In this document: positions 10,883-60,370 of the stretch, in pieces
Position numbering within the stretch: the first letter of the stretch is position 1
How the letters are laid out: each line of letters opens with the position of its first letter
Source of the DNA: Diplonema papillatum
Taxonomy: Eukaryota > Euglenozoa > Diplonemea > Diplonemida > Diplonemidae
DNA length: 64,000 nucleotides
Direction of reading: 5' to 3'
NCBI GenBank assembly: GCA_030068145.1
Contig: JAPJBO010000077.1
Span: 186,001-250,000 of the forward strand
The notes under the pieces: model-generated
Seen by the model: only the letters and a program-made list of their open reading frames with translations
Database searches by the model: none
What the model was told of the DNA's origin: nothing
Translations under genes and position numbers: made by a program

Positions 10883-13800
10883 CTGTGTTTAGTGGGGTTT
10901 TCGAATGCTGCGCGTGCTGGTAAAGAAATGCCTCCAACAGTTTGCTTTACCTGGCGTAACTGCTAGCTATCCTGGGGGAAACTTCGGGGGTGAACCAGCT
11001 ACTGGATAATTTGAGGGTCTTTCGCCCCTATACCCAGCTTTGACGAACGATTTGCACGTCAACACCGCAACGGACCTCCGCCAGGGGTTCCCCCGGCTTC
11101 GTCCTATCAGGCGTATTAGGGCTGAATACCAAGCCTTTTGTGTCGTCATGGGCTACGCCCCACTTAATAAGGTAGCTAAATCCCGGATGCGAGATGAGCC
11201 GAGAGCTGATTTCGATGTCTGCGATCATGGCCGAATGCGCCCCGAAGTAGATGACGCTCACGTGAACCAACCGAAGTGACAGCTCGCTTGAGGAAGACTG
11301 TTTCAAATGGGTCGACAGGACGCAGAGCGAAGAACGTCTGGGGAACTCATTTCGTCATCAATTCACGTTGGTTGATCACTGGCCAGGCAGCGGTAGACCA
11401 CGTCTGCGATGCCCAACCGAAAACCTTCTCCTTGCGCTCCTTAGACGGTCGCGCCAGCGACCTAGCGGCGTACGCGCCCGCACACGCGCCCGCTGTGCTC
11501 AACTTGCCAGCCGCTTCTGCCTGGGAATGTCAGTAGAGGGGACGGGGGGGTTGTACGTGCCGGGGGAGGATTAGCCTGTTGATTGATAGTGAGTGAATAT
11601 GATCGCTAGGCCAATCTTCTCCCAAACACGCTGCCGGCGTTCTCTTTCGTGTTTACAAAGCATTGTTACAACGAAAATACTCGAGGGGCTGCCTTGTGCT
11701 TACTTCGAAGGAGGCTAGAGGGGGAGAAACAATACAACTACAAAATGGGTCTTTTTTGTTGAACGCTTACGCCCGCCACTAAACCCGGATTTACCTGTGT
11801 TTCGTGTGGGCTACAGCACATTTACCTCCTTTGATCTTTTGCAGTTGGCAGCCTCCTCAAGTATTTCCTACAAAGCAGGTGCTTATACAAAAAAAAAAAA
11901 GCCGAACCCTAAGAGGGGAAAGCGTACCTGGATGGAGTCCACGTTTGTGTGGAAGCTGTGCAGGACATAATTCAAGGAGTCGGTGTCTTGGTAGACCTCT
12001 TCCAACGTCGTCATCAACTGTGTGTGGTGGTTTTGGCAGCTAAGTTGCGCGCAAAAGCCAGGAACAGGTAGACATGTGCTTGGGCGCGTTCCATATGAAG
12101 ACAACCCTTTGAGCCCCCCAGCACTACGTTCGGACCCGGCGTCAGTACTCCCGCTAATCCCACGGCCGCTAGGAAAGAAAAAGCTGAGGTTCGGTGAATT
12201 CGCGCTACACCGACATGACCCTCGTGAGAGGCGCAAGATAAAGGCGCTGTTCAGAGAGCACATCTGCCACAGCTGACGGTTCTTCCCGTTTTAACGTTTC
12301 TTCCGTATACTGTCTTCCAAACGCTCAAACCTCTCAGAGAGTAGCCTTACCCGTGCGACGAAGGAAAAAGCGAACTGGATAATGCCCTTGTAGAAAGAGG
12401 CTGCCAGTTCGTGATGAACTGGGTGCGAAGGCAATCTTCAGGGTGCTGCACGCAAATGAAAAGAAATGTGAAGCCCGGGGTTTTGCCTGGAGGCTTTTCT
12501 TCTCGTTGGAAGGAAGTGAAAGTGCGGGGAAAAGGACGTGTGCGACTCCTCCGCAAATCGGATTATGAAACGTTGAGGGACTGGCCCTCTGTGGGGGGTC
12601 GTTGTTATTGGTGCCGGTTTTGAGGGAGAAAAGGTAAGAAATATGCTTTGCGGTGGCCTCCGCTGGTCTGGCAGTCTGTGCTACCTCCATTCTTTTACAC
12701 TCGTTCTCTTCTCTACTCACTACTGTACGTACTCTTTCACTTTTTTTACTGCCTGTCACCTGACTTTTCTGCATCCTTGAGAGCTACTTTTCTTACACGC
12801 ATAGCTACTTTTCTTGCACGCATAACTACTTTTCTTGCACGCATAACTACTTTTCTTGCACGCATAACTACTTTTCTTGCACGCATAGCAGTTTTGGTTT
12901 CCAGGTGCTTTTGTGGGCAATACAGGTGCATTCGTGGGCAATCCGGTGTCTTCGTGGGCAATTCAGGTGCATTCCTGTGGAAGTCACAGTGCCAAAGAAC
13001 AGCAAGGGACAAGGTTGACGCGCATGATCTGACACTACTGAGCGAACGGAAGAATGATTCGAATGGCAGGACCAGCTCATTCGTTGCAGGATGCGGAGCA
13101 GGAGTCGGAGACCGCCAGTGCCATGGAAACTTGGGATGCTGACGTGCAGCGTACACTGTGTGAGCCGACTGTGCTGTTGTACACGACAGGAACTTGGCCA
13201 GTAGCTGGTGTGTGGCACGCCATCTTTCTTGGCCTTCGGCGTCTCCCACACCCTGTGCGTAGCTCTCTCGGACGCAGAAAAGTCAGGTGATGCGGCAGTA
13301 AAGCAATCTTCTTACCTCGAGACGTCGTTTTCTTGCACTCGGTTTTCCAGATTGCCACTCGAGCCCTGCGGGCTCTCGTGGCAATCTGGAAAACCTCGTG
13401 CAAGAAAACGACTTTTCTCTCGGTGAATAAATAGCTATTACTGCCTGTCACCTGACTTTTCTGCATCCTTGAGAGCTACTTTTCTTACACGCATAGCTAC
13501 TTTTCTTGCACGCATAACTACTTTTCTTGCACGCATAACTACTTTTCTTGCGCTCATAACTACTTTTCTTGCACGCATAGCAGTTTTGGTTTCCAGGTGC
13601 ATTTGTGGGCAATACAGGTGCATTCGTGGGCAATCCGGTGTCTTCGTGGGCAATTCAGGTGCTTTCCTGTGGAAGTCACAGTGCCAAAGAACAGCAAGGG
13701 ACAAGGTTGACGCGCATGATCTGACACTACTGAGCGAACGGAAGAATGATTCGAATGCCAGGACCAGCTCATTCGTTGCAGGATGCGGAGCAGGAGTCGG

Positions 13801-40150: not shown

Positions 40151-40320
40151 TTGGATCCCGAAAGATGGTGAACTGTGCCTGGATGGGACGAACCCGGGGG
40201 AAACCCTGGTGGAGGTCCGTTGCGGTGTTGACGTGCAAATCGCTCGTCAAAGCTGCGTATAGGGGCCCATCGAATCATCTGGTAGCTGGTTCACTCCGAA
40301 GTTTCCCCCAGGATAGCTAG
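40151..40320 (+). pseudogene. LSU rRNA fragment (domain II)
   Basis: TTGGATCCCGAAAGATGGTG, AACTGTGCCTGGATGGGACG, GGTGGAGGTCC, GGTGTTGACGTGCAAATCG and GGTAGCTGGTTCACTCCGAA follow the conserved eukaryotic LSU order. The GGGGCGAAAGAC box is damaged here (GGGGCCCATCGAATC), so it is a pseudogene fragment. It overlaps the LSU segment found at 10962-11110. Confidence 0.75.
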
Positions 40321-52089: not shown

Positions 52090-52312
52090 TTTTTAGAGAG
52101 CTAAAAGTTCGCTTGTTGTTGCCGTTTCCTTCTTTCTTGTTGGCGTTTCCTTCTTTCTTGTTGGCGTTTGTGTTCTTTTAGTTTCTTTCTTTCTTTTGCT
52201 TTTCTTTTTTTTTTTTTTTTCCCGACGACAACTCGTGTCAGACTAGCCTACCCGAAGGCAGTTGTTTTCTTTAGGCAAGGTTTCTCTGCCGGCGGAAGTT
52301 GTTTGGGTTAGC

Positions 52313-52315
<3 letters not shown>

Positions 52316-52349
<34 letters not shown>
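52316..52349 (-). other. Poly(A) tail of LINE family 1
   Basis: An unbroken T run on the plus strand abuts the target duplication. It is the 3' tail of the inserted cDNA. Confidence 0.95.
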
Positions 52350-52350
<1 letters not shown>

Positions 52351-52430
52351 TCGGCCGCCCAATGTCCACTCTCCTTACTGTCTTTCTCCTTTCCGCTAGT
52401 CGCCTTTTTCACTGTCAAATCAAGCATGCA

Positions 52431-55400
52431 CTAATCGAGATATCTCAAAACGAGGGATGACCAACGAGCCGCGAGCGGGTCGTCACATAGCGCTTTCACG
52501 CGCCTGGCCACGTGGCGGATTGTGGGCCTTCGTCTTGTCGCAAAGTCTTCGAGGAGTCGCCTCAGATGTGGTCGGTCTTGTGGGTATGCTTCCATGATAT
52601 CAGACACATCATTGTGCGTCGCGTCGTCTGCCAGCAGTACATGCTGGGCGGTTGCCATCTCCGCGCACCGTATACAGTTGACCTTTGTGCCTCGAGGCAT
52701 TACCGCACGCCGCACGATGGACTGCAGGAGGTCTGCCGCCCCGGGTATGGTCTCGAGGGAGCCGAGGGTGCTTCCCTTTGTCGTCTTTGCCGATGCCAGC
52801 TCTCGGATACTCCTCATGGCCGTCTTCGTGCGGCGGTGACGCCAGACGCGCCGCACGAAACGGATGGGGCTCTCCAGCATCGGGAACTCCTCAGCCACGA
52901 GACAGCACACAGACTTCACCCCGTTTAAAAGGTGGAGCAACTCCATGCTTAGACCCGGTCCTCTGTCCCGGAGTGCCTGGGTCGCCGCCTCGTCCGCCCG
53001 GTTGATGAAGGCGTTGTCGGCGTGCCCCTTACTCCATCGAAGGCACTGCGCGTACTCGCCTACTGCGTTGGCGACGGGGTCGCCGGGCTCTCCGCGGCGG
53101 ACACGCAAGATTGCGGCCTCGCTGTCGCTGTACCACGTGACACGGTCGGGTGCGACTTCACGCCGCCGTAATGTCGTCGCTAACAGGTAGATGGCGGCCA
53201 ACTCGGTCTCCGTACTCGATGTCACCGTGCCCCTCACCATGCAGCCGAACGACGTCGTGCCAATTGACACCCCGGCGGACCCGCGTGATTCGTCTTCCAG
53301 GAACCCCCCGTCGGTCGCCACCACCATTTCCCGCGGCTCCGAGAATTCATCCGTCCCCAGTAGCGCGTCTAACCGTTCCAAAACGTCCTCTCCCTCGACC
53401 GTCGGGTGTGGCGGCCTTCGCCGGAATCCTTCGACCGGCAGTGCGCTTTTCGCCTCGTCAGGTCGATGAGCCAGTACCGCCCGCGTTCGTTGTAGCGCCG
53501 CATATGTCTCGACATTTTGGCAGGCAAAGCCGTCTTTGCACCACGCGAAATCCTTTATCCCCCTGCTGTGGCGATGCTTGGGAAAGAGACTCGCGTGGGC
53601 TGCAACGAGCTTCGGCGCCCGCGGGTCGAAGCAAGACGAAAGACAGTGCATCGATACGATGGGGAGCACGTGGCTGCTGAAAAAGGCGCATTTTCGCCTT
53701 GTGGAGCGGTGCACGTGGGAGTTTGTGAAGTCGACGAGGCGCGCCAGCCTTTCCATGCACTTGGCGTCATTGTCGCACCCACTCAGTCGTCCGCCCGCAT
53801 GGATACACACGCCCAGCAGTCTTGCCCGGTTGGTGGTTTCACGGATGGGATCCGAGCTCCATGCGAAGGAAGACCTCGCCAGTACAACCGTCTTTTCCTC
53901 AGCCAACTCCAGGTCTTTCGATGTCGCCCACTTCTTTAGGGCCCTGTACGTTCCTTGGAGTCTTGATCTCGTCGTACGTGCAACCAGGTCATCGACGTAT
54001 GCCCGTGTTTCATCCTCGGGGGGAGGCTCGCAGGTATACAAGATGTACAGCAGCACGCTGAGGGGTGATCCCTGGAGAACGCCGCGTTTCATGCCAACCG
54101 GCGGGGTGAAACCGTCATAGTGCACAATCGACACTTCCTGATCCTCGATGACCCTCGCTATCGTCCTCGCCCACTCGGGACCAAGCAACCTCTCGACCGT
54201 CCGAACCAGCTTTTCATGCGGTATCGTGTCAAATGCCGCGAGAACGTCGACTAGCAGCAGCAGGTGTTCATCGTCGGGCTCCGTGCCTGAACCCGATTCC
54301 AGCCATTCCTTCGCATAAAGCACTACCTGTGCTGCCCCGCTCCGGCTGCCGCACCCGAACTGGAATTTGTACCTGAGGACCACCGATTGCACGAGCGGCT
54401 TCATCTTCTGGTACAGCGTCGAGTGCAAAAGCTTTGCGAATAGGGGCATTATGGCGATCGGGCGATACCCCCTCGGCTCCGACCTTCGCAGCGCCTTTCC
54501 CTTCCAAAACAAGAAAATCCACGACAACCGCTGACGCGCCGGGACGCCTTCACGAACCCATCTATTCAGCTCATCCGTTGTTGATTGTACGGCTTCTTCA
54601 GACATAACTCTTAGAAACTTCGGTGAAAAATCTGCCGTTCTCGCGGTGGGCCGGATGGCTTCGATTGCCGTCCTGAGGTCTTCGGTTGTCAATGCGACTG
54701 CTTCGGTGTCCGGGGGTATGATTATCGGGGGACTGGGCGTGTCGGATTTATACTTGTTTCGGAGGAAAGCTGTAAAGGCGTCGGGATTTTCCAGCAACGG
54801 AGGCTGGTACGGAGTCGTCAGGTTGGGCGGCCTCTGCTTCATCGCGACCACGTCCAACTTCTTCCGTACAGATCGTATCTCGGCGTTCAACAACTTCTTT
54901 TGCTCCGGGCCGGCCGCGCTTCGGAGAAGGATCCGTCGGTAGAGAGCGTCCTGCAGCCTCGCCACCTTCGTGCTTCTGGGTCGCGGTGGGGGGCTTGCAC
55001 CCGTTTCATCCAGTGTGTTCAGCAAATCGGAAAAGGCCGTCTGGTCGAGGACTTGTCGCTTCGATGGGTAGATCATGGCCGGAGGCTTCTTCAGGAATTT
55101 GTCGAATCGGAGGATTAGTACGGCGTGATCGCTTCCACCGGTGAACCGTATTCTGTCCAAGCTCCAGCGCGAACTTCTCGGTACAAACGCCCTATCCAGG
55201 GATGACGCGGCGTTGGACCTCGCGAACGTGGTTTGCGACCGAACCAGCTCCTGCAGATTTTCCCTCCGTACTCGAATCTCTACTTGGGGGGTTGTCCGCG
55301 GATTAAAATCCCCGACAACTGCAACATCAGTCACACAGTCCCGAGCACGCGACGCTATCCAGTCTCCAAGTCGATCCGTCAGGGCATCACGTTTGTGGCA

Positions 55401-55943
55401 CGGAACGTATACACTTACCACTCGCAATGTCTCGCCAGCCACCTGCAGATCCGCGCTGCACGCCCCGTACCCCGAATAGCACTGTGATAGCGTAATCAGG
55501 GATTGCTTCTTTATCAGTATCGCCGTTCGGGCCAGGGGGCGCCCGTTCGCGTAGGGGCACGTACCCACTACGACGACACTCCATCCAGCACGCTTCGCGT
55601 ATTCGCGGAAATTTGTGGGCTCACGACCAATCTCGTTCACCGCCAGGATATCGCCGGCGGGTAGGCGAGCGAAAAATCTCTCAAGACACATCTTCGAGGA
55701 GGCATTGCACGACAGTAGGACTAGGCTTCTTTCGGAAGGGAGAAAAAGGCGGACGTTTGTGGACGGTATGATCAGAGGAGGCCGTGGACGTAAGGGACCG
55801 GTTGTTTCGGTTGGTTGTTGTGACAGGGAGGGATTGACTGATGGGCTGGGTGATATTTCGAGGGAGGAATTGACTGATAAGGTTGACCTGACGTTGTTGG
55901 GGTTGTTTGTTTCCGTCTTATAGACCGTGGCTAATAGGAGCCC
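52431..55943 (-). CDS. LINE ORF2: endonuclease, reverse transcriptase, RNase H
   Basis: Domains in order. First an APE-like endonuclease (LLSCNASSK, DILAVNEIG, VSVYVPCHK, VAVVGDFNP, GGSDHAVLIL). Then reverse transcriptase with catalytic aspartates in LLLLVDVLAAFDTI and AYVDDLVA, plus KRGVLQGSPLSVLLYILY. Then RNase H (VVATDGGFLEDES, TETELAAIYLL, WYSDSEAAIL, KGHADNAFINRADEAA). The C-terminus has CIRCAEMATAQHVL. This layout fits I/ingi/L1Tc-like LINEs. The first in-frame ATG (55691) falls after the first endonuclease motif. The frame stays open without ATG back through the intergenic spacer and overlaps the end of ORF1 in the -1 frame. Translation may thus need frameshifting or reinitiation. Confidence 0.93.
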   Translation of the reverse strand, partial: GLLLATVYKTETNNPNNVRSTLSVNSSLEISPSPSVNPSLSQQPTETTGPLRPRPPLIIPSTNVRLFLPSERSLVLLSCNASSKMCLERFFARLPAGDILAVNEIGREPTNFREYAKRAGWSVVVVGTCPYANGRPLARTAILIKKQSLITLSQCYSGYGACSADLQVAGETLRVVSVYVPCHKRDALTDRLGDWIASRARDCVTDVAVVGDFNPRTTPQVEIRVRRENLQELVRSQTTFARSNAASSLDRAFVPRSSRWSLDRIRFTGGSDHAVLILRFDKFLKKPPAMIYPSKRQVLDQTAFSDLLNTLDETGASPPPRPRSTKVARLQDALYRRILLRSAAGPEQKKLLNAEIRSVRKKLDVVAMKQRPPNLTTPYQPPLLENPDAFTAFLRNKYKSDTPSPPIIIPPDTEAVALTTEDLRTAIEAIRPTARTADFSPKFLRVMSEEAVQSTTDELNRWVREGVPARQRLSWIFLFWKGKALRRSEPRGYRPIAIMPLFAKLLHSTLYQKMKPLVQSVVLRYKFQFGCGSRSGAAQVVLYAKEWLESGSGTEPDDEHLLLLVDVLAAFDTIPHEKLVRTVERLLGPEWARTIARVIEDQEVSIVHYDGFTPPVGMKRGVLQGSPLSVLLYILYTCEPPPEDETRAYVDDLVARTTRSRLQGTYRALKKWATSKDLELAEEKTVVLARSSFAWSSDPIRETTNRARLLGVCIHAGGRLSGCDNDAKCMERLARLVDFTNSHVHRSTRRKCAFFSSHVLPIVSMHCLSSCFDPRAPKLVAAHASLFPKHRHSRGIKDFAWCKDGFACQNVETYAALQRTRAVLAHRPDEAKSALPVEGFRRRPPHPTVEGEDVLERLDALLGTDEFSEPREMVVATDGGFLEDESRGSAGVSIGTTSFGCMVRGTVTSSTETELAAIYLLATTLRRREVAPDRVTWYSDSEAAILRVRRGEPGDPVANAVGEYAQCLRWSKGHADNAFINRADEAATQALRDRGPGLSMELLHLLNGVKSVCCLVAEEFPMLESPIRFVRRVWRHRRTKTAMRSIRELASAKTTKGSTLGSLETIPGAADLLQSIVRRAVMPRGTKVNCIRCAEMATAQHVLLADDATHNDVSDIMEAYPQDRPHLRRLLEDFATRRRPTIRHVARRVKALCDDPLAARWSSLVLRYLD

Positions 55944-57151
55944 ATCGGGTCGTCCCCGGGGCGCGGGTTTTCAAGCGGTGACGTCCCCCCGCCGCCTTCT
56001 CCAACCCGCTCCCCAGGCTTGCTCTTTGCCGGTGGCGACACCGACATCTCGCCCTCTCGTTCTAGACCCCTCTTCGCTCCAACTGCGTCCTCTTTCTCCG
56101 CCCTTGCCTTTGCGCCTGTCTTCTCCTTCTCCCCTTTTCCCTTCTTGCCGGCTCCTCGCCCTTTCGGCGCGCCTCCCTTCCCTTTTTCGGTTACCTGCAC
56201 TCCCTGTGGCCTGCATTCCTGGTCATTTCCGCTCTTCGACCGTTCGTCCGCTGCCTCGTCATCGGATGCGCTCGTCTCTCCGCGACTCGCTGCTCGGGCG
56301 TACGTTCTGGGGGTCCGCGGGGCGCCCGTCTCTCCCTCCACCAAAACGCCCAGTTCCCCGAAGCGTAGCTCCCTGGCTCCAATCTTGATCTGCAGACTCT
56401 GCAGTAGGGCCTCCTCTTCCTCCTCCAGCCCTTTCACCGCAAAGGTCGTCGTTGCCCGCGTTAGACCGTACGCCGGAATCAGTTCGAATCCGCTTGTCAC
56501 CCCAGCGTGGTTCAGGGCTAACTGGACTTCGTAGTCTGCCAGCGTCCTACTGAGTCCCACCACCCCGAATTCTCCCTTAAGCCTCTCTCTGTACGCCTCC
56601 TTGTCCCTCGCCGCCTGCTCTTTCGATTTAACGAAAACCCCATCCCGCTTTACCGCCATCCCTGCCGCGTCCAAACGCTCTGCGAAGGCGCTAATCTTCC
56701 CCTCTGACTCCCTGTCCGCGAATACTCGATACCCGGTGGCCGAGTGGCGCATAATCGCTGCCCGCATGCCTACCTTCTCCATGGCCTCGATGATGTCCTT
56801 GGGGGGGTTCGAAAACGGGTCCTCTCGCGCGGTTCGTCTCTGAAAAGCCTCCAATTCGATGCCGGGAGGGGGCGTGATGATCCATGCCGCGGGGTTGATT
56901 GAGAAACGATGTTCAGCGGCCACTCTCGCAAGCAGGTCCAGGTCGCACCCGTCCTCCATCTCCAGCAGCTTGACCACGTTTCCTTTGTAGTATCCACCGG
57001 CGCTACGCACCTTCGACACTCCGGCCACCCTTCCAATGCTCTCCATGACCTTCCCAACATCCCCCACCTCGCCGCATAGTGAATACACCTTCGCCAACGC
57101 CTCATGCAGCTCGTCGTCTCCTATCAGCAGTACCTCCCCGTCGCTCGGCAT
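55931..57151 (-). CDS. LINE ORF1 protein
   Basis: The ATG at 57151 (MPSDGEVLLIGDDELHEALA) follows the A tract and leader. The frame runs 406 codons to TAG at 55931. The body is mixed alpha/beta with two repeats of a pattern like GYRVFADRESEGKISAFAER and GVFVKSKEQAARDKEAYRER, which could be an RNA-binding fold. No CCHC knuckle is visible. The C-terminal 120 residues are Lys/Arg/Gly-rich and low complexity (EKGKGGAPKGRGAGKKGKGE), suited to nucleic-acid binding. The role in RNP formation is inferred from position. An upstream TTG in the SL-derived leader is not a likely start. Confidence 0.8.
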   Translation of the reverse strand: MPSDGEVLLIGDDELHEALAKVYSLCGEVGDVGKVMESIGRVAGVSKVRSAGGYYKGNVVKLLEMEDGCDLDLLARVAAEHRFSINPAAWIITPPPGIELEAFQRRTAREDPFSNPPKDIIEAMEKVGMRAAIMRHSATGYRVFADRESEGKISAFAERLDAAGMAVKRDGVFVKSKEQAARDKEAYRERLKGEFGVVGLSRTLADYEVQLALNHAGVTSGFELIPAYGLTRATTTFAVKGLEEEEEALLQSLQIKIGARELRFGELGVLVEGETGAPRTPRTYARAASRGETSASDDEAADERSKSGNDQECRPQGVQVTEKGKGGAPKGRGAGKKGKGEKEKTGAKARAEKEDAVGAKRGLEREGEMSVSPPAKSKPGERVGEGGGGTSPLENPRPGDDPMGSY

Positions 57152-57541
57152 GTTCTTGTCGGAGTTTTTTTTTTTTTTTTTTTTTGGCAATAAAGTACGG
57201 CGGAAGTTGTTTGGGTTAGCGTTCTTTTTTTTTATTTTTCTTTGAAGAGTGAAAGTTAGCTTCGTTTGGTGACGCGGCGGCTTGGCGCACGTGTTAACCT
57301 TATGTCTTTTTGTGTGGGGCTGGGGGATGTGTGTACGAAGATCTTTCGCTGTTGTTGCTTTGGTTCTGGGTTTCCTTTTCCGGTTTGAGAGGTGGAGGGG
57401 GGGGTGTTCTCCTGCGTGTGTGAATTCGTGTTTCGCGGCAGTCGTGGTGTCTTCGTGCAGGAATCGCTGGGTTCACTTGCAGCCGGATGCGTGATCCTCT
57501 TGGCCGTCTGCCCTGTTGCTGCCATCTGCACCGCGGTTTCT

Positions 57542-59499: not shown

Positions 59500-60370
59500 C
59501 TTTTTTTTTGTGTTCCTTCTACGATTTTTGTCGTATATAGTGCGGTGGTCACGTTCGTTAGCTGGCTGCTAGAGCTATGAGGCAGTGGCCGTTGCGAACA
59601 AGGGCGGTCTGTGGGGCAGCGACGGAAGCGGCGGGTGCGCAACCGGTAACCGCTAGGCTAACACGGAGGCGAGCAAGCGTGCGTTTGCTGGCCGGCCGCA
59701 CCATTCACATCACGCATCTCTTGGTTTGTCCCAACGGCTCGTATCCAAATCTACCTCGCACTCGAACGAAGAGTGGGGGGCAGCACTAGCCTCGTCGCTG
59801 CTCTTCCGTCGCAATGCCAGGGACGCATAAGCGCTGCCGGAAATAGTCAGTTGTCAGCCTATACCACCCACCACTCATCGGTTCCGGGGACTTTTAACCC
59901 TCTTTTCAAATTTCTGTGCATCTTCCCATCACGGTACTTGTTCGCTATTGGCCTCCGCAAGATATTTAGCCTTTAGCAGAGGGATACCTGCCGCTTAGCT
60001 CAGCATTCCCAAACTGAGCGACTCGTGCTGACCGAGAAATTAACCAACATGGCTCGTCGAAGAAATTCGCCAGTCCCGAAAAAGCGACAGAGCCGTCATT
60101 TCTCCTTTTCCCTGCAGATCAGGACGAACCTCTTTCACGTTCCCGTGCCTTTCGTGTGGTGAAAGAACGGGTCTCTCGGACGGCGATGGGAACGCAGCTA
60201 GGCATCTGCCCCGCTCAAGCGGGGCTCCATCTGGAAAGAGACAAGGCTACCGAGCCGAATCCAGGCCAGCGGCTTCCCCGGCCCGTCGACTTCTCAACGC
60301 GTAGTAAGGCAGCTAACGCCGAGTAAGTGGGGATACCACGGCAACCGCCTCTTTCAGCCGGAGGATGTTG
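59500..60370. other. No protein gene; unassigned GC-balanced block
   Basis: Between about 59960 and 60360 the sequence has short self-complementary blocks such as CCCCGCTCAAGCGGGG, CGAAGAAATTCG and TGGGAACG. It resembles structured RNA or rDNA more than coding DNA. I could not match it to a known rRNA region. Confidence 0.3.

Follow-up and report, generated by a model that had tools for sequence, protein, structure and literature searches.

Spliced-leader remnants at the 5′ ends of LINE copies in Diplonema papillatum point to trans-splicing of the template before retroposition

Introduction

With every cycle a LINE has to make the 5′ end of its RNA anew, and the known solutions are an internal promoter or co-transcription followed by ribozyme release; in R2-type elements, host co-transcription and a 5′ ribozyme together make the RNA 5′ end. 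The trypanosomatid elements L1Tc and ingi have a conserved 77-nt 5′ internal Pol II promoter, Pr77, and unspliced transcripts, and reporter RNAs derived from Pr77 are described as lacking the spliced leader (SL) in the partial text of PMC4748587. Release of L1Tc RNA by a ribozyme has also been described (PMC4035085, partial text). In dinoflagellates, retrogenes with DinoSL relicts arise when trans-spliced mRNAs are reverse transcribed and inserted with their 5′ SL (Slamovits and Keeling 2008, as cited in the partial texts of PMC6050394 and PMC12014239). Repeated rounds leave tandem SL relicts there, and a site inside the relict has been suggested as acceptor (PMC12014239, same portion). Six genome-encoded SL exons merged to transposable elements are reported in Schistosoma mansoni, with the suggestion that they are trans-spliced, retro-transcribed elements (PMC5832876, partial text), and about 30% of the transposable-element Iso-Seq reads of Hydra carry the SL (PMC12220107, partial text).

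The genome of D. papillatum, of roughly 280 Mb, holds about 2500 retroelement gene models and an SL RNA-5S-U2 array, with 110 SL RNA genes, a 39-bp exon and a 75-nt intron; no mention of SL tags on the retroelement gene models was found in the partial text of that paper (PMC10161547). A literature search that covered few subscription papers found no description of SL-tagged LINE insertions in diplonemids or of an SL-dependent LINE 5′ end with leader turnover, the nearest case being that of S. mansoni in the portion of PMC5832876 available.

The LINE in the Window and Its Sister Copies

The window, the whole 64-kb stretch of D. papillatum DNA analysed here, carries on its minus strand a two-ORF LINE with an ORF1 of 406 aa and an ORF2 of 1086 aa that includes a reverse transcriptase. 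The minus-strand order upstream of ORF1 is CGCTAACCCAAACAACTTCCGCC, GTACTTTATTG, CC, A21, CTCCGACAAGAAC and the ATG (57151). The features are listed below.

52205..57221, minus strand: LINE family-1 insertion, including a 5′ module piece and the 3′ module with terminal A16; probable boundaries, from sister copies and an A-rich duplication candidate
57222..57233, minus strand: 5′ copy of the low-complexity candidate AAAAAAAAAGAA for the true target duplication (compare the 14-bp duplication of L078)
57198..57223, minus strand: 26-nt AACGCTAACCCAAACAACTTCCGCCG, left copy of the repeat formerly taken as target duplication; from base 3 onward, identical to the start of the LINE's own 3′ module
57188..57198, minus strand: SL tail GTACTTTATTG, bases 29-39 of the 39-nt SL; its first G is common to the preceding CCG
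57165..57187, minus strand: CC and A21 tract from the SL tail to the ORF1 leader, read as captured leader sequence
57152..57164, minus strand: CTCCGACAAGAAC, the last 13 nt of the leader; together with the ORF1 start, found elsewhere in L078 only
55931..57151, minus strand: ORF1 from its ATG, 406 aa; no Pfam match
52431..55691, minus strand: ORF2 (1086 aa), with endonuclease-like motifs at its N terminus, a reverse transcriptase (RVT_1, E 1.7e-13) and a weak RNase H (E 0.034)
52314..52349, minus strand: internal A36 run, at the first 3′ end
52221..52313, minus strand: 3′ module CGCTAACCC...GTCGTCGGG, 93 nt; contains the right copy of the repeat formerly taken as target duplication
52205..52220, minus strand: terminal A16 tail
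52202..52213, minus strand: 3′ copy of the low-complexity candidate AAAAAAAAAGAA for the true target duplication, overlapping the tail

The RVT_1 match identifies the ORF2 enzyme as a LINE-type reverse transcriptase, and the six PDB sequences matching ORF2 all come from a reverse transcriptase, from LINE-1 ORF2 or from R2 (best E 0.0013). At the ORF2 N terminus there is no Pfam endonuclease match; GDFN and SDH motifs align with the ORF2 endonuclease of L039 (E 6e-04), which itself matches Exo_endo_phos. Another SL-tagged LINE, of family A (L045:2548-8478, SL/GCTGCTCACGCGG, the slash marking the junction here and below), has an ORF2 of 1976 aa in which a 2OG-Fe(II) oxygenase domain (2OG-FeII_Oxy_2) precedes the endonuclease and reverse transcriptase. 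The window also contains three fragments of eukaryotic LSU rRNA (40157-40289, 11016-11116 and 59806-60114); about 3600 scattered 28S rRNA pieces are reported for this genome (PMC10161547, partial text).

Sister copies were chosen by an ORF1 protein search of the genome with the SL ignored, because choosing copies by their SL had to be avoided. Among at least 101 places found (100 of 200 candidates scored), 22 near-full copies are 97-100% identical and make up family 1; the others lie mainly near 75, 44, 41 and 29%. The 5′ ends of 62 copies were compared, comprising the window, the 21 other near-full family-1 copies, 20 of the 23 near-full copies at 74-76% and 20 copies at 28-45%.

The first-pass annotation had placed a 26-bp target duplication at 52290-52315 and 57198-57223. 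The repeat is real, but its right copy lies inside the LINE's own 93-nt 3′ module, and the repeat is therefore not a target duplication. When the 3′ ends of 21 family-1 copies were read (the window and 20 of the 21 others, not L080), 15 of them, the window included, had the module after an internal A-run, four were without the module and two had no recognisable end. The order in those 15 is the first 3′ A-run, CGCTAACCC...GTCGTCGGG and a second A-run. The module of the window carries the same alleles as the other family-1 modules read, and the AAAACAACTG variant is common to the window and L078 only among those read; genome-wide there are 31 exact 25-mers of this rarer variant vs 557 of the common form. 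A search for duplications between the 5′ and 3′ ends of the 21 family-1 copies gave a clear case in L078 only, a 14-bp duplication AAAAAAAAAGAAGA (A9GAAGA) directly before the outermost SL tail, and an automatic duplication search in the retrieved loci gave no result. In the window, A tails are present, and the 12-bp candidate AAAAAAAAAGAA, despite its low complexity, is a better candidate duplication than the 26-bp one.

The Host Spliced Leader

In the same assembly, locus L047 holds U2, SL RNA, 5S and U2 genes in a row. The SL exon of this gene is AACCAACGATTTAAAAGCTACAGTTTCTGTACTTTATTG, 39 nt long and ending GTACTTTATTG / CAGTTTCTGTACTTTATTG, with the SL RNA intron read right after it (75 nt by the length given in PMC10161547, partial text). 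The U2-SL-5S-U2 arrangement matches that described in the same portion of the D. papillatum paper and supports the euglenozoan host proposed from the window alone. The exon ending CAGTTTCTGTACTTTATTG is the one that the first-pass annotation had expected, and its reading of the LINE 5′ end as an SL tail holds, with the 11 nt at 57188-57198 matching the end of the host SL RNA exon. It left unmentioned the 21-nt A-tract between the SL tail and ORF1.

Genome counts were made over the assembly of 271 Mb in 2910 contigs. GTACTTTATTG occurs in 1110 places, vs 36 for the pattern read backwards, and CAGTTTCTGTACTTTATTG in 628 places, vs 0 backwards. In the 64-kb window, the end of the host SL, TACTTTATTG, has a single occurrence, also when one mismatch is allowed. 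Shuffles of the window gave at least one match to this 10-mer, at up to one mismatch, in 84 of 100 cases; the 10-mer alone is thus not significant in 64 kb, and its weight rests on the genome counts and on the sister copies that bear the SL.

Among 78 SL junctions listed, starting with the lowest-numbered contigs so that SL RNA arrays are perhaps under-sampled, many different sequences stand downstream of the SL, some common to several loci (LINE-like families) and others found once. Three of the junctions (L032, L047 and L071) continue into the SL RNA intron, with L047 being the verified array gene. L032, in which the SL exon and about 44 nt of SL RNA intron are joined to sequence unrelated to them, is a piece of SL RNA that was either retroposed or rearranged. 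The locus L040 (G000:C91:16500-24000) contains four SL-like leaders with one base changed, spaced by about 2 kb, and three complete 491-aa ORFs, the single one tested being without a Pfam match. Some SL-tagged families have recurrent targets, such as a TAC microsatellite (L016, L017, L026), a ACTCGATTAC satellite (L035, L055, L064, L067) or a repeat ending AACTCAATGCTTAAC (L001, L004, L021). In family B (e.g., L006, L061 and L075; relatives L064, L067 and L002 listed alongside), the 5′UTR is GTGGCTTGCCGTGG, with 136 exact 27-mers in the genome; the relatives have their junction in common, and a hairpin may follow it. A pattern meant as a host retrocopy was found in 79 places in the genome, was classed as a repeat and was not used.

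Spliced-Leader Remnants in Sister Copies

The end of the host SL exon stands at the 5′ junction of a reverse-transcribed copy in the window, the mark of an SL-tagged retrocopy. Among the 62 ORF1-anchored copies, 25 have at least 10 nt of the SL (8/22 in family 1, 9/20 in family 2 and 8/20 among more distant copies). The other 37 are without such a piece in the roughly 260-330 nt read, although three of them have 8-9 nt. Two or three SL pieces, the tandem relicts that repeated rounds leave, are present in 11 of the 62 copies, and the window copy has one. The copies contain 40 exact matches of at least 10 nt to the 114-nt SL RNA, 39 of which hold at least 10 nt of the SL itself, and all 40 stop at exon base 39 or run on to base 40 or 41 through a G or GT that follows by chance. 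Matches of at least 8 nt number 114, vs 17, 18 and 42 for the reversed, complement and reverse complement controls; 39 of the 114 arise because GTACTTTA within the SL itself also matches the start of the intron. Since the controls also give matches at this length, 8-nt matches alone mean little.

The longer SL pieces that had been proposed as a check were found in other copies, up to all 39 nt (L121 and L128). Two family-1 copies have a nearly full SL at the same place (37 nt in L088, 36 nt in L095), L140 has three SL tails, L145 has a 38-nt SL followed by two short ones, and L119, L120 and L122 have the inner SL in common and differ in their outer parts. The SL remnant in L119 (G000:C298) looks internally deleted, with bases 1-8 of the leader followed directly by bases 29-39. 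The stretch G000:C433:39337-54561 contains L098, L134 and L088 (families 1, 2 and 1), and each later SL starts in the A tail or the 3′ module of the preceding LINE. In L061, L065, L068 and L075, GTACT is repeated before the SL tail at the 5′ junction (in L075, TGTACTGTACTGTACTTTATTG), which suggests that the reverse transcriptase slipped on reaching the end of its template.

The remnants range from 10 to 39 nt in the ORF1-anchored set, with 11 nt as the commonest length (21/39). In a set chosen by a 19-nt SL pattern, 38 nt, with A1 missing, is commonest (22/47), and over all sets 39 nt was found in 9 cases vs 38 nt in 26, so that the 39-nt cases would fit chance extension; the length table leaves out L032, L047 and L071 (SL RNA gene or fragments) and L040 (tandem gene array). 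In trypanosomes, the first nucleotide of cap 4 is modified. The frequent loss of A1 would fit such a modified first cap nucleotide, as if nucleotide 1 could not be copied. Over all sets, an A precedes the 11-nt remnant in 16 of 23 cases, making a new AG.

Leader Turnover and Acceptor Sites

Comparison of 20 family-1 copies with an intact ORF1 start showed that no pair has more than 19 nt in common upstream of the ATG once A-runs are collapsed. The exceptions are L079, L080 and L082, a trio with a longer common stretch. As the ORF1 sequences of family 1 are 97-100% alike and the leaders are nearly unshared, this LINE would probably be without a 5′UTR promoter of its own. The window and L078 are identical over 354/354 nt from CTCCGACAAG into ORF1, and CTCCGACAAGAACATGCCGAGC occurs in these two places only. 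Upstream of this stretch, L078 reads TACTTTATTG-TGGGGGAAAA-GTACTTTATTG-AACGACGTATATCGTCGACCGCAC-A12, whereas the window there reads GTACTTTATTG-CC-A21. A constant, unrelated 5′UTR around TACTTTATTG, which had been named as the outcome that would overturn the SL reading, is absent in family 1, in which the surrounding sequence varies from copy to copy.

A-tracts are a regular part of these leaders. A scan of 90 nt, with its end at the ORF1 start or at most about 40 nt beyond, found at least 10 A in a row in 59 of the 62 copies; among 90-mers drawn at random from the window, 1.7% have such a run. A6 lies at most 12 nt upstream of 23 of 39 SL remnants. Several of the captured pieces start right after an AG and match stretches, the 3′ module among them, that elsewhere terminate in an A-run.

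To locate unspliced counterparts, the 13 nt following each of 73 distinct SL junctions were looked up in all retrieved sequence; the count leaves out 13-mers in which more than 9 letters are the same, as well as contexts that end in TATTG or have fewer than 20 nt upstream. An SL-free counterpart exists for 18 of the 73 junctions (55 have none), and the commonest context has AG in place of the SL, as the first-pass annotation had anticipated, in 14 of these 18 (binomial p 2.2e-14 at an AG frequency of 0.061, the junctions being assumed independent events). With one representative context for each, AG stands at the junction in 13/18 and at any other offset within 8 in 0-3/18. For instance, SL/AACGACGTATATC in L078 corresponds to CATCAG/AACGACGTATATC in L023, and SL/TCTCCTCAAGCAT in L137 to GGCAG/TCTCCTCAAGCAT in L154, L157 and the window; further counterparts with AG are CGGCAG/AGAAACCTTGCCT, ACAAAG/CAGGTGCTTATAC and GGTAG/GCTAGTCTGACAC. 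The four junctions without AG as commonest context are AAGAACATGCCGA, AGTACTTTATTGT, CTTACCGTGGTCA and GAAATCAACTGCC. TTTCTGTACTTTATTG follows the SL in L120 and L150, and the acceptor there would apparently be the ACAG inside a genomic SL copy (ACAG/TTTCTG). One of the 14 positives is such an SL-internal acceptor, whose counterparts are SL copies themselves. For the junction of the window, no donor with AG/CC-A(n) was found, its CTCCGACAAGAAC leader occurring otherwise in L078 only.

Origin of the Spliced-Leader Tails

The identity of the SL, the stops at the exon end and the AG before 14 of 18 junctions indicate trans-splicing followed by retroposition, and this order of events for the LINE template is strongly supported by the sequences compared. 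Together with the longer SL pieces, the same evidence bears out the proposal that a trans-spliced LINE mRNA was reverse transcribed, a central idea that was right and understated. The window insertion itself has, by its match to the exon, retained the last 10-11 nt of the 39-nt leader. We give a probability of roughly 0.85 to the reading that the window LINE is the cDNA of an SL-trans-spliced mRNA. Weighing against it are the four junctions that lack AG as commonest context, the 55 junctions without a counterpart, the 37 copies in which no SL of at least 10 nt was read, the single clear duplication among 21 copies, and family B (below).

In this mechanism, a LINE copy would be transcribed by read-through from host polycistronic units, and the acceptor would be an AG supplied by the flank, by an older leader or by a genomic SL copy itself (ACAG/TTTCTG). 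The trans-spliced SL would supply the cap to the LINE RNA, and target-primed reverse transcription into A-tracts would give a new copy. Each round could add one ring, consisting of an SL, captured flank and an A-tract, and the leader would become a partial record of earlier insertion sites. We lean, with less assurance than for the origin of the window copy, towards the wider proposal that read-through and SL trans-splicing rebuild the capped 5′ end of this lineage in every cycle, with the SL bringing its own acceptor and the leader keeping a partial insertion record. The promoterless reading concerns the 5′UTR, and a promoter inside ORF1 may still exist.

End-to-end template jumping is known for the R2 reverse transcriptase. 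Here the enzyme would, on reaching the 5′ end of the LINE RNA, continue on the poly(A) tail of a second trans-spliced RNA, and a ring would be a separate small mRNA joined within one insertion. Several arrangements agree with this, such as rings that look like SL-short-A(n) in L087 and L140, the piece of the LINE's own 3′ module that adjoins the window SL tail upstream, the 3′ module piece upstream of a 6-nt TTATTG in L090, and the head-to-tail order of family 1, family 2 and family 1 in C433. However, trans-spliced RNAs would still be required, and the A-rich duplication at the outer SL of L078 is as for ordinary insertion into A-tracts. Inner rings common to sister copies are allowed by accretion and template jumping alike. 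As a general account template jumping seems unlikely, and it may have made the module piece before the window SL tail and the similar piece in L090. A different alternative is that the SL piece is not added anew and has instead been passed on vertically as a frozen part of the 5′UTR, for example as a leader mimic or a sequence at the promoter start. The related 5′UTRs with a junction in common agree with such inheritance, as does family B, in which, within the range of the matches listed, GTACTTTATTG lies directly upstream in 14 of 15 copies and the longer CAGTTTCTGTACTTTATTG in only 1 of 39; the short remnant in 14 of 15 copies thus suggests inheritance in that family and not new addition in each round. 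In family 1, by contrast, the SL is flanked on either side by sequence that varies among copies, and the SL length (10 to 39 nt in the ORF1-anchored set) and the acceptors differ, making a frozen leader quite improbable.

An SL RNA-derived fragment such as that in L032 (exon and about 44 nt of intron) shows that SL RNA sequence exists elsewhere, which would agree with a reverse transcriptase that switched from LINE RNA to free SL RNA. Against such a chimera, the 40 matches in 62 copies stop right at the exon border or 1-2 bases beyond it, and AG acceptors are present; it was rejected for the precision of the junction and is given very little probability. Chance resemblance of the 10-11-mer, to which the matches in 84 of 100 window shuffles at up to one mismatch would point, was likewise rejected and is the least probable of these explanations, given genome counts of 628 vs 0 and 1110 vs 36 and sister copies with a full or nearly full SL.

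Overall, trans-splicing followed by retroposition is the preferred reading, and the observations indicate that SL trans-splicing would carry out the regeneration of the LINE 5′ end in this diplonemid. If true, this would be a third way to make a LINE 5′ end, beside internal promoters and self-cleaving ribozymes, and trans-splicing would let promoterless retroposons live in polycistronic genomes. The leaders could then be read as an insertion history, and retroposition events could be located and oriented across the genome by their SL tags, with a possible bearing on the repeat content of the D. papillatum genome.

Comparison with Known Systems

The diplonemid copies resemble the dinoflagellate retrogenes in the SL at the 5′ end of retrocopies, the tandem relicts and the suggested relict-internal acceptor (PMC12014239, partial text). 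In dinoflagellates, however, it is host genes that bear the tag, and the element behind them is not known according to the partial text of PMC6050394, whereas the unit here is a LINE with its own reverse transcriptase. In addition, the leaders of the diplonemid LINEs also capture upstream DNA, unlike the dinoflagellate tagged units. For the SL exons of S. mansoni an assembly chimera was not excluded, and an acceptor test, nesting and leader turnover are not given in the available portion of PMC5832876. The observation in Hydra is at the RNA level, with genomic SL-tagged insertions not described in the partial text of PMC12220107, whereas the insertions here are genomic.

Like L1Tc and ingi, the window LINE belongs to the LINEs of Euglenozoa that live in SL trans-splicing hosts. 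Those elements have the conserved Pr77 5′ end, whereas the window family is without a conserved 5′UTR: judged from the leader comparison, no 5′ hallmark of the Pr77 kind was found in 20 family-1 copies, which share at most 19 nt upstream of the ATG, one trio excepted. The SL found in genomic copies also argues against unspliced transcripts of the L1Tc kind. An Rfam search for HDV-like ribozymes gave none in 10 SL-tagged loci (none of them of the window's family) and no match in the window at the gathering threshold; the consensus fold of SL-tagged 5′UTRs has 10 pairs, one with a compensatory change, and shows no HDV-like ribozyme. The likeness to R2-type elements would lie in the combination of host transcription with an RNA-processing step that makes the 5′ end, a step that here would be performed by the SL trans-splicing of the host.
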